Assembly (NCBI RefSeq): GCF_000219875.1
Contig: NC_017167.1
Coordinates: forward strand, 2,875,361-2,939,360
Length of the DNA stretch: 64,000 bases
DNA from: Alicyclobacillus acidocaldarius subsp. acidocaldarius Tc-4-1
Lineage (GTDB): Bacteria; Bacillota; Bacilli; Alicyclobacillales; Alicyclobacillaceae
Direction of reading: 5' to 3'
Under the pieces are notes generated by a model, which saw only the letters and a list, made by a program, of their open reading frames with translations, did no database searches and was not told where the DNA came from. The position numbers were made by a program, and so were the translations under genes. This document shows, piece by piece, positions 15,936-35,096 of this stretch. Position 1 is the first letter of the stretch. Each line of letters opens with the position of its first letter.

Positions 15936-15963
15936 ATTATCATATCACGTTGCGCACCGTCAA
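15936..15963 (-). promoter_or_regulatory. Sigma-A promoter of rpmG-secE-nusG
   Basis: Minus strand TTGACG (15958-15963), 16 bases, GATAAT (15936-15941). The -35 lies inside the last codons of sigH, so the group can be transcribed independently of it. A small CCCCG/CGGGG hairpin (15907-15919) lies early in the leader. Confidence 0.62.
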
Positions 15964-16611
15964 GTATTTCTCCAGTTTCCGCTTGACCCGTTGAAGCGCG
16001 TTGTCGATGGATTTGACATGCCGAGCGAGATCCACGGCAATCTCCTGATACGAACGCCCGTCGAGATACAGCATCAACACTTGGCGCTCCAAATCGCTCA
16101 GCAATTCGGCCATCTTACCCTCAATATCGTCAAACTCTTCCTGGTTTATAATCAGCTCTTCCGGATCCGCGACGCGCACGGTACAGATGACGTCGAGCAG
16201 CGTGCGATCCGAATCCTCATCGTAAATGGGCTTGTCCAGCGAAACATAGGAATTGAGAGGAATATGCTTTTGTCTCGTGGCTGTTTTGATAGCGGTGATA
16301 ATCTGGCGCGTGATGCACAGTTCGGCAAACGCCTTGAAGGAGGAGAGCTTGTCTCCGCGAAAATCGCGGATGGACTTATAGAGTCCAATCATGCCTTCCT
16401 GCACGATGTCTTCCCGATCAGCCCCAATGAGAAAGTACGACCGCGCCTTGGCCCGAACGAAATTCTTGTATTTGTGAATCAAATAGTCGAGCGCGTCGGT
16501 GTCGCCTCGATGAACAGCCTCAACCAACTCCTCGTCCGTCATGTTCTCGTAGGGCGCCGTGTCGTACGGCGGGGCCGCATCGGCGTCTCTAGGTGTCGGC
16601 TGCGTCGACAA
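15940..16611 (-). CDS. sigH: RNA polymerase sigma-H factor
   Basis: Sigma-30, the transition-state and early-sporulation sigma factor; 223 residues. Region 2 includes DREDIVQEGMIGLYKSIRDF and SSFKAFAELCITRQIITAIKTA; region 4 ends in a helix-turn-helix (DLARHVKSIDNALQRVKRKL). The start is TTG 16611 (M-S-T-Q) behind GGGTGATAG. It lies between rae1 and rpmG, as in B. subtilis. An inverted repeat overlaps its probable promoter. Confidence 0.96.
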   Translation of the reverse strand: MSTQPTPRDADAAPPYDTAPYENMTDEELVEAVHRGDTDALDYLIHKYKNFVRAKARSYFLIGADREDIVQEGMIGLYKSIRDFRGDKLSSFKAFAELCITRQIITAIKTATRQKHIPLNSYVSLDKPIYDEDSDRTLLDVICTVRVADPEELIINQEEFDDIEGKMAELLSDLERQVLMLYLDGRSYQEIAVDLARHVKSIDNALQRVKRKLEKYLTVRNVI

Positions 16612-16643
16612 ACTCTATCACCCCGAGCCTCGTGAATGAGGCC

Positions 16644-31363: not shown

Positions 31364-31834
31364 TCAAGGTTTTCGGTACGCTGCCAACGCCTGCAGCGCA
31401 CTTGCCAGCAACTTCGCCCGCAGCCGATCTCGATATGGAAGGTCGAGTGCGAGCACGTCCCGGCGCAACATGGCGGAAATCAACGCGGCTTCGCGGTCCG
31501 TCAACCACCCGTCCCGGTGCAGGCGTTCGATCAGCGCCTCGCTGGCGGACTGGCTCACCTCGTCCCCGAGCGATCTCAGCACGTCCCACAGCAGGTGATC
31601 CTTGTCGAGCTTCACGCGCCGAATGCGGATGTACCCGCCGCCGCCGCGCTTGGACTCGACGATGTACCCGTGATCCGTCGTGAAGCGCGTGCTGATGACG
31701 TAGTTGATTTGAGACGGGACGCAGTGAAACTGCTCCGCGAGCTCATTGCGCTGAATCTCGATCACGTCAAGCCCGCCTTCTTCCATGAGTCGTTTCAGAT
31801 ACGCCTCGATGATGTCGGAGATGTTGCTTGCCAT
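31364..31834 (-). CDS. ctsR: Transcriptional repressor CtsR
   Basis: Class III heat-shock repressor, 156 residues. The N-terminal winged helix contains RNELAEQFHCVPSQINYVIS and the glycine-rich wing tip ESKRGGGGYIRI, which senses temperature in B. subtilis. The C-terminal domain (TDREAALISAMLRRD) mediates dimerisation and McsB contact. Its own promoter carries heptad operators, so the operon ctsR-mcsA-mcsB-clpC is autoregulated. Confidence 0.97.
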   Translation of the reverse strand: MASNISDIIEAYLKRLMEEGGLDVIEIQRNELAEQFHCVPSQINYVISTRFTTDHGYIVESKRGGGGYIRIRRVKLDKDHLLWDVLRSLGDEVSQSASEALIERLHRDGWLTDREAALISAMLRRDVLALDLPYRDRLRAKLLASALQALAAYRKP

Positions 31835-31874
31835 GATGACAACCCCTAACGCAGCACCGTCCTCTGAAGTTCCA

Positions 31875-31911
31875 TTTGACTTTGATTTTTTGACTTTGAC
31901 TTTTCTTGACC
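31875..31911 (-). promoter_or_regulatory. CtsR operator (heptad repeats)
   Basis: Reading the minus strand from 31911: GGTCAAG-AAA-AGTCAAA gives the CtsR consensus of two heptads with a 3-base spacer and one mismatch. Further GTCAAA, ATCAAA and AGTCAAA units follow to 31875. It lies immediately downstream of the -10 of ctsR, so binding would block transcription start. Confidence 0.88.
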
Positions 31912-31913
31912 TT

Positions 31914-31941
31914 ATTATACACCTGCCCGCGGGAAATGCAA
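31914..31941 (-). promoter_or_regulatory. Sigma-A promoter of the ctsR operon
   Basis: Consensus -10 TATAAT (31914-31919), with TTGCAT (31936-31941) as a weak -35 at 16-base spacing. CtsR heptads begin 3 bases downstream. Confidence 0.7.
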
Positions 31942-32199
31942 GAGGGGTTTGGTTCTAGTGTGCACAAAAATCCAATGCATTCTGCGCCCGCGCCTCTCAC
32001 CACACAAAGTCCCGTTCAACGGTGACATGCACAAGGTTTAGCCCGCCGTCGATGCGCTACGAAGGTTCGATGCAACGCCCGCTGAGTCCCATGCAAGGTC
32101 TCATGCGCATTCGAGACGGGATCGCCCACTTCGCCCGGTTTACGCTTGCCTCGCATGCAAAAATTCGCGGGCCGGCCCGCCCGAGCGAGGGAAAGGTTC

Positions 32200-32246
32200 A
32201 TGCTTCCGCTGTCGGTGTTGCACGATATCGTTCATCGCGCCCGCCG
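32200..32246 (+). pseudogene. 5' fragment of sigma-70-like gene, split by IS
   Basis: ATG at 32200, behind GAGGGAAAGG, opens a frame (MLPLSVLHDIVHRAR) that runs to the left end of the IS at 32247. Joined to base 34529 onward it continues in frame into the sigma-like 3' part. See the 3' fragment for domains. Confidence 0.75.
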
Positions 32247-32342
32247 TGTCAACATCGGTTGTAAAATCCCCAATAACATCGGTTGAGAATTCCCCAAGAT
32301 CATCGGCCTCAATTCCTCAAAATCATCGGGATGAATTCCCCA
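32247..32342. repeat. Left terminal repeats of the IS (four units)
   Basis: Units begin at 32251, 32275, 32299 and 32322, each close to ATCATCGG, about 6 variable bases, then AATTCCCCAA. These are probably transposase-binding sites. The inverted copies lie at the right end. Confidence 0.8.
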
Positions 32343-32411
32343 CCCCCATGTCGAATCGTGGCACCTGTCATCCATTCATGGGAGGTGCCCGTCATGAGGG
32401 AGGACGAGAGG

Positions 32412-33635
32412 ATGGAATCAGGCAACTTTACGAGGCAGGCGTCAGCATCTCGGAGCTGGCCAGAAGATTCGGCTATGACCGAAAGACCATTCGCAGTGCA
32501 CTGAATTCATCGGTGGAGGAGAAGCAGGGCGAAAGAGCGTCGCGTGGGGAGCGAAAGAAAGGTTCCAAGCTGGAGCCCTACAAAGATTACGTGAAGCAGC
32601 GCATGCAACTTGGTGTGCTCAACGCTGTACGAATTCTACGAGAGATTCGGGAGCAGGGCTATACCGGCGGGATCACCGTCCTGCGAGAGTTCATGAAGCC
32701 CCTTCGCCCGGTGGTCTCTGCCAAGGCCACGGAACGCTATGAGTCGGACCCTGGTGAACAAGCCCAGATCGACTTGGGGGCCTTCCCCTACTACGATTCG
32801 CACGGTCAGCGACGAACGATTTGGGCCTTCGCCATGGTACTCGCCTACTCCCGCATGCTCTACGTTGAGTTTATCAAAGCGGCAGACCAACTGCACATCC
32901 TTCAGGCCCTTCGCAACGCGCTGGAGTTCTTTGGCGGTGTGCCTCGGGTGATTCTCAGCGACAACTGTTCGTCTTTGGTCGTCGCCAATGACGGTCAGGG
33001 TCACGTGGACTGGCAACCGGCGTATCTCGATTTTGCCAAGTTCTACGGATTCGTGCCCAAGGCATGTCGGCCTCGCCGGAGCCAGACCAAAGGCAAGGTA
33101 GAACGGCCCATTCGCTATATCCGGGACAACTTCTGGCCAGTTGCCTTTGTGGACGAAGCGGATTTGAACCGACAGGTCGCGTGGTGGCGCGATCACGTCG
33201 CCAACGTCCGCATCCACGGAACGACACATGAACAGCCCATCGTGCGGTTTCAAGCTGAGAAGCTGCAACCGCTACCGGCCACCCCATATATGTTGGCTTG
33301 TGCAGGTCTTCGGAAGGTGATGAGTGACTGCCGGGTCTCCTGGAACACGAACTTGTACACCGTTCCCTGGTCGTATGTGGGCCACACGGTCCTGGTCCGA
33401 GAGTTCGAATCGGGTCGCCTGCAGATCGAATACGGGGGACAGGTGATTGCGGAGCATCGTGTGCTGCCCGGCAAGCATCAAATCTCCACGGACCCCCGAG
33501 CACTACAAGAACCTCCCTCGGGACACCGCGAATCCAGCGCGGGGTAAGACAGCGGGATGGCAAGTCGATCCGGACGTGGAGCAGCGCGAGCTTGGGGTCT
33601 ATGAACAGATCGCCATGGGAGGTCATGTGCAATGA
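32412..33635 (+). pseudogene. istA: IS21 transposase IstA, frameshifted at both ends
   Basis: DDE transposase of IS21 type: an N-terminal helix-turn-helix (GVSISELARRFGYDRKTIR), then a catalytic core with aspartates in QIDLGAF and ILSDN and the glutamate in KGKVERPIRY. The main frame is open from 32378 to 33544. The natural start seems to be ATG 32412 behind GGAGGACGAGAGG, but it is one base out of frame (GGAATC where GGAAATC would fit). Near 33495 a CCCCC run shifts out of frame, and the expected C-terminus (PEHYKNLPRDTANPARG) ends at 33635, overlapping istB. Confidence 0.82.
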
Positions 33636-34450
33636 GCGAGGCATTGGTGGTCGCTCAGGTCGAGGAACAACTGTTGGACCTGGGCTTGAAGCGAGCTGCT
33701 GCCGTCTTGCCGGCGTGCGTGGAGTGGGCCGCCGGGCAAGAGGCGACCTATGTCGCATTTCTCCAGCGTTTGCTGGAGGCTGAGCAGGAGGAGCGGCACA
33801 GCCGGGCCATGCAGGCTCGGCTGCGCTTGGCGAACTTCCCGTTCCACAAGACCCTCGCCGACTTCGACTTCTCGTTCCAGCCATCTGTGGATGAGCGCCA
33901 AATCCGAGAGCTCGCAACGCTAACGTTTGTCCAAGAATGCGGAAACGTGATTTTCCTAGGGCCTCCAGGGGTGGGAAAGACGCATTTGGCCGTGGCCCTC
34001 GGCATGGAGGCGATTCGCCAGCGGATGAGCGTCTACTTCGTCACCATGCAGAAACTCGTGAGCGATTTTTTACGCCGAGCCTACCAAGAAGGGCGGCTGG
34101 ACAGGCGGCTCCGAGTCTATACGCAGCCAAAGATTCTGATCTGTGATGAGGTGGGCTACTTGCCTCTTGACGCGCTCGACGCCGCGAACTTTTTCCGGCT
34201 GGTCTCAGAGAGGTACGAGCGAGGGTCGTTGCTCATCACGTCCAACACGAGTTTCACGAATTGGGGAACGCTCTTTGGCGACCAGGTCCTGGCCGCCGCC
34301 TTACTCGACCGTTTGTTGCATCATGCAACGACCGTGAATATCCGTGGCAACAGTTACCGCATGAAAGACAAGCTGCGAGCTGGCGTTACGCACGGATTCT
34401 CGGCAACAAGAGACGAAGCGAACACATGTGTGGGGAACGAATCGCGATGA
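33632..34450 (+). CDS. istB: IS21 transposition ATPase IstB
   Basis: DnaC/DnaA-like AAA+ helper of the IS21 transposase, 272 residues, intact. Walker A is GPPGVGKTH near residue 110, Walker B ILICDEVGYLP, and sensor 1 LLITSNTSF. ATG 33632 is behind GGGAGG and overlaps the restored istA stop as ATGA. The last codons run into the right-end repeats. Confidence 0.93.
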   Translation: MSEALVVAQVEEQLLDLGLKRAAAVLPACVEWAAGQEATYVAFLQRLLEAEQEERHSRAMQARLRLANFPFHKTLADFDFSFQPSVDERQIRELATLTFVQECGNVIFLGPPGVGKTHLAVALGMEAIRQRMSVYFVTMQKLVSDFLRRAYQEGRLDRRLRVYTQPKILICDEVGYLPLDALDAANFFRLVSERYERGSLLITSNTSFTNWGTLFGDQVLAAALLDRLLHHATTVNIRGNSYRMKDKLRAGVTHGFSATRDEANTCVGNESR

Positions 34451-34525
34451 TTTTGGGGAATCGAATCCGCTGTTTTTGAGGAATCGGGCGCGATTTTTTT
34501 GGGGAGTTTTAATCCGCTGTTGACA
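34429..34525. repeat. Right terminal repeats of the IS (four units)
   Basis: On the minus strand from 34525 there are four units resembling AACAGCGG, variable bases, then TTCCCCAAA, inverted relative to the left end. The innermost unit overlaps the last codons of istB. Confidence 0.8.
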
Positions 34526-35096
34526 CCGCGAAGGAGATGACGTCTGTCTGCACGCGCTTTTCGACATGTTTCGTCCCCTATTGCGAGGCGCCGCCAAGCG
34601 GTATGCGCGCGTCGCCGGGTACGACGAGGCGTATCAGGAGGCGTGCGCCGCGTTTCTGCACGCCATTGCAACACATCACCCAGACGCTGCCCCGTTTCCG
34701 GCATACGCCGCAAGTCGAGTGTATGGCGACACCCGCACCTCCATGCGAAGGTGGTGGTTGGCGCAGGAGCGAACAGCGTTCCAGAGGCAATCCGAGGAGG
34801 GAAGCCACGAGGAGTGGGACGAAGAACCGGAGCGCAAAGGCCCTTGCTGCTCCGCGGAAGGAGATTCGTTCGACCGCGTGGACCAGCGCCTGACCCTTTT
34901 GCGCCTGGCGCGCGAAGCGAGGCTCGCGCCACGAGAAGCCGCCTGGCTCGCGCTCGAACTGGCCGGGCTGGACACGAGTGAGGTGGCAGAGCAACTCGGC
35001 GTAAGCCCCGCGACCGTCCGCACCTGGCGCATGCGCGCCGTGCGCAAGATGCGCGAGCGGGCTTTGAACGCGGGGCTGTCCCTGAGCGATCTGTGA
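34526..35096 (+). pseudogene. 3' fragment of sigma-70-like gene, split by IS
   Basis: Continuing in frame from 32246 (via 34529) gives REGDDVCLHALFDMFRPLL, then RYARVAGYDEAYQEACAAFL, resembling sigma region 2, a charged linker, and a C-terminal region-4-like helix-turn-helix (DTSEVAEQLGVSPATVRTW). The whole would be 204 residues. An internal ATG (34566) could start a 176-residue product but has no ribosome site. The family looks like a small sigma-70-related or HTH protein; I cannot name it. Confidence 0.75.

Follow-up and report, generated by a model that had tools for sequence, protein, structure and literature searches.

Disruption of a sigma-70-family gene by an IS21-family element in Alicyclobacillus acidocaldarius Tc-4-1, and a putative link of this gene to competence

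Introduction

In Staphylococcus aureus, L. sakei and streptococci, the late competence (com) genes are driven by a sigma factor (PMC3486894, PMC3364868). The same reports describe SigH of S. aureus as a small sigma factor tied to comG/comE expression (PMC3486894), SigH of L. sakei as an activator of com genes, and ComX/SigX of streptococci and lactococci as a small sigma factor for the late competence genes (both PMC3364868); for the late com genes of Bacillus subtilis they name sigma-A together with ComK (PMC3486894), and a further report makes competence of Lactococcus dependent on ComX (PMC11244767). The production of SigH in S. aureus is limited by a 13-base inverted repeat within the 5' untranslated region (UTR) of sigH (PMC3486894). 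In this study we analysed a stretch of 64,000 nucleotides (referred to as the window; contig NC_017167.1, positions 2,875,361 to 2,939,360, i.e. G000:C1:2875361-2939360, where G000 denotes the genome of the analysed strain) from Alicyclobacillus acidocaldarius subsp. acidocaldarius Tc-4-1. It contains a sigma-70-family gene (32200-35096) interrupted by an insertion sequence (IS) of the IS21 family (32247-34525). The host is a heat- and acid-loving bacterium. Coordinates without a prefix are those of the window, and features lie on the forward strand unless stated otherwise.

The split gene resembles sigH of S. aureus in encoding a small sigma factor and in having an inverted repeat in the 5' UTR, ahead of the start codon. 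It differs in that the hairpin is short (5 bp) and precedes the Shine-Dalgarno stretch rather than covering it, in the conservation of its CCGG loop across families, in its linkage to a ComK-like gene, and in that the protein is not SigH by NCBIfam. With ComX/SigX it may share the role of a small sigma factor for late competence genes, whereas in the scans made sequence similarity did not go beyond the sigma-70 superfamily. As for ComK of Bacillus, the best Pfam family of the neighbouring gene is ComK; however, most of these neighbours score below the Pfam cut-off, and ComK is here paired with a sigma factor. None of the literature titles searched dealt with this sigma factor, with competence in Alicyclobacillus or with the pairing of the sigma factor and ComK; subscription journals were mostly outside the coverage, and this absence is unproven. 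On balance, the locus is probably a naturally inactivated gene for a competence sigma factor that is partnered with ComK and works like ComX or staphylococcal SigH.

Results and Discussion

Disruption of the sigma gene by the IS21-family element

The frame opened by the ATG at 32200 (5' part of the gene, 32200-32246) enters the left end of the IS, TGTCAACA, at 32247, as the original prediction had read it, and the right end, TGTTGACA, terminates at 34525. The only sequence repeated on both flanks is CCG (3 bp; left copy 32244-32246, right copy 34526-34528, neither assigned a strand). The 3' part, which carries regions 2 and 4, occupies 34529-35096, and its longest remaining open reading frame (ORF) runs from an ATG at 34566 and comprises 176 aa. 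Joining base 32246 to base 34529 indeed gave the predicted uninterrupted frame of 204 codons, with a stop codon at 35094-35096. The frame remained open when 0, 3 or 6 bases were left out at the junction, while offsets of 1, 2, 4, 5, 7 or 8 bases led to a stop after 17 to 137 codons.

A search with the rebuilt protein, which had been proposed as a check, returned matches in 49 of the 61 genomes searched (own genome included). Homologues without interruption, running from residue 1 in a single frame with no stop codon, were found in G002 (81% identity), G013 (77%), G010 and G014, which confirms that close relatives are intact and that both halves belong to one gene. The start codon and the position of the leader described below are common to these four genomes and the window. 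Among the relatives that carry the gene, the species named are A. mali, A. fructus, A. sendaiensis, A. tengchongensis and A. sacchari. Genomes devoid of a sigma match cannot be counted as real losses (fabZ was found in one of eight checked).

In G002, G013 and G014 there is one codon fewer at the junction than in the joined sequence of the window, so the ancestral gene probably had 203 codons, not 204. The material added on insertion would therefore amount to about 6 bp instead of one CCG, and the duplication would be imperfect. The claim that the gene can be rebuilt exactly thus holds for the open frame and fails by one codon against these three relatives, and the removal of the element plus one CCG is unlikely to restore the ancestral state.

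The knock-out was originally suggested to be recent. Over the 174 comparable remaining codons, dN/dS between the window and five relatives was 0.15-0.24, against 0.09-0.26 among the relatives themselves; selection is not relaxed, which fits a young loss. In contrast, the IS copy is not fresh, as its alignment with the nearest sibling copy has 31 differing columns, among them six gaps and some that fall in istA.

A similar situation was noticed in A. sendaiensis (G009), in which two contigs (C32, locus L058, containing only the 3' part of the gene, and C99, locus L059) end within the same sigma gene and have 9 bases in common at these ends, GATGTTTCG. Such a pattern would be left by an IS with a 9-bp duplication and suggests a second, independent insertion as the likely cause; an assembly gap is less likely.

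The 2279-bp element belongs to the IS21 family, as judged from curated models and matching terminal repeats. It encodes an istA-like transposase (32246-33547; NF033546, 256 bits, cut-off 160), whose C-terminal end is altered by indels relative to sibling copies, and an istB-like helper ATPase (33632-34450; NF038214, 279 bits, cut-off 200). Target duplications of IS21-family elements usually measure 4-8 bp; the perfect repeat found here has just 3 bp and becomes longer only if an indel is allowed. A TTGACA sequence at the right end of the element is directed outwards. Elsewhere the genome has two more complete copies of the element, with 98 and 99% identity, as well as fragments. The sibling copies L038 and L039 share an identical left flank, have different right flanks and lack a target duplication, which hints at rearrangement between IS copies.

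Identity of the sigma factor

The truncated remainder scored 49.2 bits against TIGR02937 (sigma-70 superfamily; cut-off 42.9) and the intact G002 protein 52.8 bits; the cut-off was passed by each of the six scanned proteins (family or ComK-linked). These matches place the gene in the sigma-70 family. Its product is best explained as a small sigma factor that has both region 2 and region 4 and whose family is spread through the class Bacilli. As regards the domains predicted from the sequence, region 4 (PF08281) of the window remainder was recovered above its cut-off (35.7 against 25.7), while region 2 (PF04542) of the truncated ORF remained below (21.7 against 24.0).

By NCBIfam the protein is not SigH: the SigH equivalog was absent from the matches listed for the G002 protein, and the protein from G032 (L079) scored 29 against a cut-off of 294.8. 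G000 contains 30 matches to TIGR02937, 19 of them, including the broken gene, above the cut-off. A quick FastTree phylogeny, in which G000 was represented by 14 other sigma frames, set the family and two ComK-linked sigma factors apart from these with modest support (0.74). Protein set A3 comprised 31 of 36 proteins. Structure prediction from five sequences gave a pLDDT of 61.9, good over region 4 only, and a sequence search of the PDB returned weak matches alone (FixJ, E 0.0021; ECF sigma, E 0.014).

Linkage to a ComK-like gene

On one side, fabZ, pgsA or a flgG gene lies within 2.6 kb of the sigma gene and converges with it in 32 of 39 relative loci. On its other side, the window has the divergent ctsR (31364-31834, minus strand; Pfam CtsR). 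A tblastn survey of 40 relative loci located ctsR beside the gene in five only (L055, L056, L057, L059 and L060), which are those of the window's clade (G002, G013, G010, G009 and G014); elsewhere this side is usually occupied by an ORF of about 180-280 aa. This ORF is most often matched by Pfam family ComK (at E <= 5, 10 of the 19 members of profile A4 and 7 of the 9 members of profile A5; best matches 1.2e-7 and 7e-8, respectively), and the two profiles align with each other at 98.1%. A4 and A5 were drawn from 46 listed frames, several of which are spurious alternative frames. The cut-off of PF06338 (ComK) was passed by the neighbours in L138, L144 and G028, and most others scored below it.

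An independent Pfam ComK search of the 61 genomes yielded 38 rows at E <= 1, of which 16 lay within about 1 kb of a sigma match (2e-38 in a crude binomial calculation with an assumed probability of 0.001 per row). Of 37 loci, 29 had a match to A4 next to the leader (19 of these 29 had built the profile), and 17 had one to the independent profile A5 (E <= 0.01). Eight loci lack such an A4 match: ctsR is present in five of them, L073 and L091 lie at contig edges, and in L086 the ORF matches but overlaps the leader by 77 bases. Outside the order, 15 of the 17 loci had a ComK-like ORF upstream, at a distance of up to 1 kb in 14 cases and of 2.3 kb in the remaining one. Two more distant genomes, G056 (one of its two ComK) and G058, encode a ComK above the Pfam cut-off with a small sigma-like ORF divergent from it; of these ORFs, L151 matches the sigma profile at 97.2% and L153 passes TIGR02937. 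The sigma gene is thus linked to a ComK-like gene, and the two adjoin in most of the order. In contrast, the comK-like gene of the window genome is remote from the sigma gene (G000:C1:338680-339192; L168, L263; E 4.1e-46) and likewise lies elsewhere in G002, G013, G010 and G014; the comK-like profile had no match in G009.

The position beside the CtsR operon had originally been taken as a clue to the lost regulon. We dropped this link, as the adjacency is confined to the window's clade. Since a ComK-like gene is the neighbour in most other loci, a competence regulon appears more likely than a heat-shock one.

A conserved leader with a covarying hairpin

Four features recur in the alignment of 38 leaders (A1; L087 of G052 was omitted, as the automatic pick was not the leader): a hexamer resembling TAYGCT, an element resembling TGCGCGCAA, a hairpin and a Shine-Dalgarno stretch. 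In the window the whole element, as modelled (R1, 72 nt), covers 32130-32201 (E 2.1e-12 at G000:C1:2907490-2907561). Its first conserved part is the -10-like TACGCT (32141-32146), with T12, A13 and T17 nearly invariant in the alignment. Next comes GCATGCAAA (32153-32161), which represents the TGCGCGCAA element in this clade and, provided that the -10 is assigned correctly, would contain the transcription start. The hairpin GCGGG-CCGG-CCCGC (32167-32180) and the Shine-Dalgarno-like stretch (32185-32196) follow. A search for a conserved -35 ahead of TAYGCT was negative.

The 5-bp stem pairs in 94.2% of cells, compared with 71.6% in shuffles, and its covariation is 0.720, a value reached by none of 500 shuffles (0.287 in shuffles); because the hairpins were located partly by the pairing itself, these figures should be read with caution. 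Slid registers gave covariation of at most 0.282, and RNAalifold returned the same stem. The loop is CCGG in 37 of 38 leaders, and the distance from hairpin to start codon is 10-25 bases (36 loci measured). In the leaders of L139 and L145 we noted a hairpin variant, the palindrome CCGGAGGCCTCCGG, whose centre is GGCC in place of CCGG.

With R1, 45 of 61 relatives yielded a single strong site each (E <= 1e-3). Seven of these genomes (G022, G039, G040, G042, G045, G046 and G049) were outside the training set, and by coordinates their sites stand just before the sigma match. In a sample of the class, 46 of 299 genomes had an R1 site, one each. Twenty of the 46 are not in A1; 17 of their sites were read, G039 was placed by coordinates, and G230 and G319 were left out. 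The sites read lie outside the order, apart from those of G055 and G059, and all 17 are followed by an ORF of the sigma family (sigma profile E 1.3e-46 to 8.1e-17), which were the sole sigma-profile matches at E < 1 among 360 ORFs. The comparison thus demonstrates a covarying hairpin that is tied exclusively to this gene. The leader motif was also considered as the mark of a regulon and rejected, as there is one strong site per genome. Rfam produced no match in the window at the gathering score, and two chance-level matches (E 2.1 and 4.6) at 31835-32300.

A promoter-like box of the late competence genes

Near the 5' end of the comGA frame, visual inspection revealed AACAGG or AAAAGG followed, after 17-18 bases, by a CGAAT-type core in 20 of 20 genomes (CGAAT in 10, CGAAC in 5, AGAAT in 3 and AGAAC in 2). 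The comGA gene was taken as one match of 320-410 aa per genome, available in 20 of 37 genomes; longer matches, probably pilus ATPases, were not used. In G000 and G002 pilin-like frames were seen by eye behind the candidate, matching the layout of a comG operon. The strict pattern occurred at 18 of 20 comGA loci and 11 of 30 comEA loci, compared with five matches in 854,451 bases of other loci, three of which are comGA again and two a single site in two genomes. The automatic choice of comEA starts was poor (seven loci had none) and was replaced by a motif-anchored frame; L180 was not found. Several genomes of family f2 have a related form before comEA, GTAAAAAGGATT or GTAAAAAGGAAT. The late competence genes have a promoter-like box in common, AACAGG-N17/18-CGAAT, and its CGAAT core recalls the ComX box.

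Competence and alternative explanations

The proposal that the split gene encoded a competence sigma factor draws on the linkage to a ComK-like gene, the box with the CGAAT core and the leader hairpin before the start codon, taken together. Several results weigh against it or against its parts. The com box is absent from the window and from the front of the sigma gene (pattern search), and the comEA and comGA gene models remained below the curated cut-offs in all genomes (0 of 37 above). Only one of the 16 ComK rows beside a sigma match is above the Pfam cut-off (G028), and hhalign with the single strong ComK (L151) gave 1.4% and 0.3%, i.e. no support. The low region 2 score was mentioned above. 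In four genomes (G041, G050, G052 and G053) the sigma match lacks a strong leader. Finally, single-sequence folding of five leaders (z +1.69, -0.07, +0.32, -0.99 and -1.35) was not better than shuffles, so the case for the hairpin depends on covariation; sequestration of the Shine-Dalgarno site, or a thermometer, by single-sequence folding was rejected on these values.

The window also contains an intact gene for the sporulation sigma factor SigH on the minus strand (15943-16614, converted from the G000 coordinates; L255, TIGR02859, 372.9 bits, cut-off 294.8), and the com box resembles a SigH promoter. SigH (Spo0H) or a SigH-like paralogue might therefore read the box, with the split sigma factor governing other genes and the pairing with ComK reflecting shared upstream control. 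A further SigH-like frame, L261 (G000:C1:2326353-2326904), which is below the cut-off (113.7 against 294.8) and nearly identical to L259 (G000:C1:1718962-1719513), its near twin in the tree, could supply such a paralogue. We find this alternative doubtful, given that the ComK-linked sigma factor recurs across families and that late com genes are sigma-driven in S. aureus, L. sakei and streptococci (PMC3486894, PMC3364868). Somewhat less probable still is the action of the upstream element as DNA, be it as an operator or as an opposite-strand terminator. Proteins might bind the palindrome and TGCGCGCAA, and the minus-strand hairpin with its AT stretch scores as terminator-like; however, such sites in the region are at chance level (4 against 3.6 expected), the stem arms covary, and the imperfect pairs of the stem (G.T or T.G in 12 cells, A.C in 2, C.A never) are biased as sense-strand RNA predicts, which favours RNA over a DNA operator.

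Continued expression and partial activity of the 176-codon remainder, which would mean that there is no real loss, are unlikely. Its open frame, unrelaxed dN/dS and the outward TTGACA of the IS would be in keeping with residual function, but the N-terminal 28-29 residues are gone, a Shine-Dalgarno sequence is not evident before 34566, and a scan found no sigma-70-type promoter inside the IS, the single match, at 31890, being upstream. A part in a heat-shock or proteostasis circuit, the view of the original prediction, has its basis in the adjoining ctsR and is very improbable, considering that this adjacency, already weakened as a clue, is restricted to the window's clade.

If the split gene did encode a competence sigma factor, its most likely role would be to bring RNA polymerase to the late competence operons comG and comE, at promoters of the form AACAGG-N17/18-CGAAT, with ComX of streptococci and SigH of staphylococci as models; the assignment of the reader to this box is our inference. 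The sigma factor would be expressed through its own conserved RNA leader, whose hairpin, right before the Shine-Dalgarno site, probably restrains translation or sets mRNA stability until a signal arrives. With the gene cut by the IS21-family element near codon 15-16, inducible DNA uptake would be expected to be absent from this strain, while comG, comE and the comK-like gene appear to be still present.

Such a role would indicate how spore-forming Bacilli outside Bacillus may switch on competence and unite the ComK and ComX models in one module; it would supply a promoter box and an RNA element that are testable at once, and predict which thermoacidophile strains take up DNA and which, such as this one, do not. 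It would also indicate that a single IS insertion is enough to abolish a regulator that is conserved throughout an order. More speculatively, the ComK-like regulator and the leader-controlled sigma factor might represent an ancestral competence switch of the class Bacilli, whole in Alicyclobacillales and several other families, of which B. subtilis kept the ComK half only and streptococci the sigma half only. The leader would then represent a previously undescribed type of cis-acting RNA that serves this one gene, and insertions would have removed the sigma half repeatedly (in this strain and probably in A. sendaiensis). We put this forward as a tentative idea.

Other features of the locus

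Between ctsR and the sigma gene, at 31862-31920, there are several TTTGACTTTGA-like repeats, which resemble CtsR operators. In L138 and L144 the sigma gene is followed by a gene similar to those for accessory Sec S-layer assembly proteins: it scores about 162 bits against TIGR04399, which is below the cut-off of 250, and its SLAP domain (TIGR04398) is above the cut-off.

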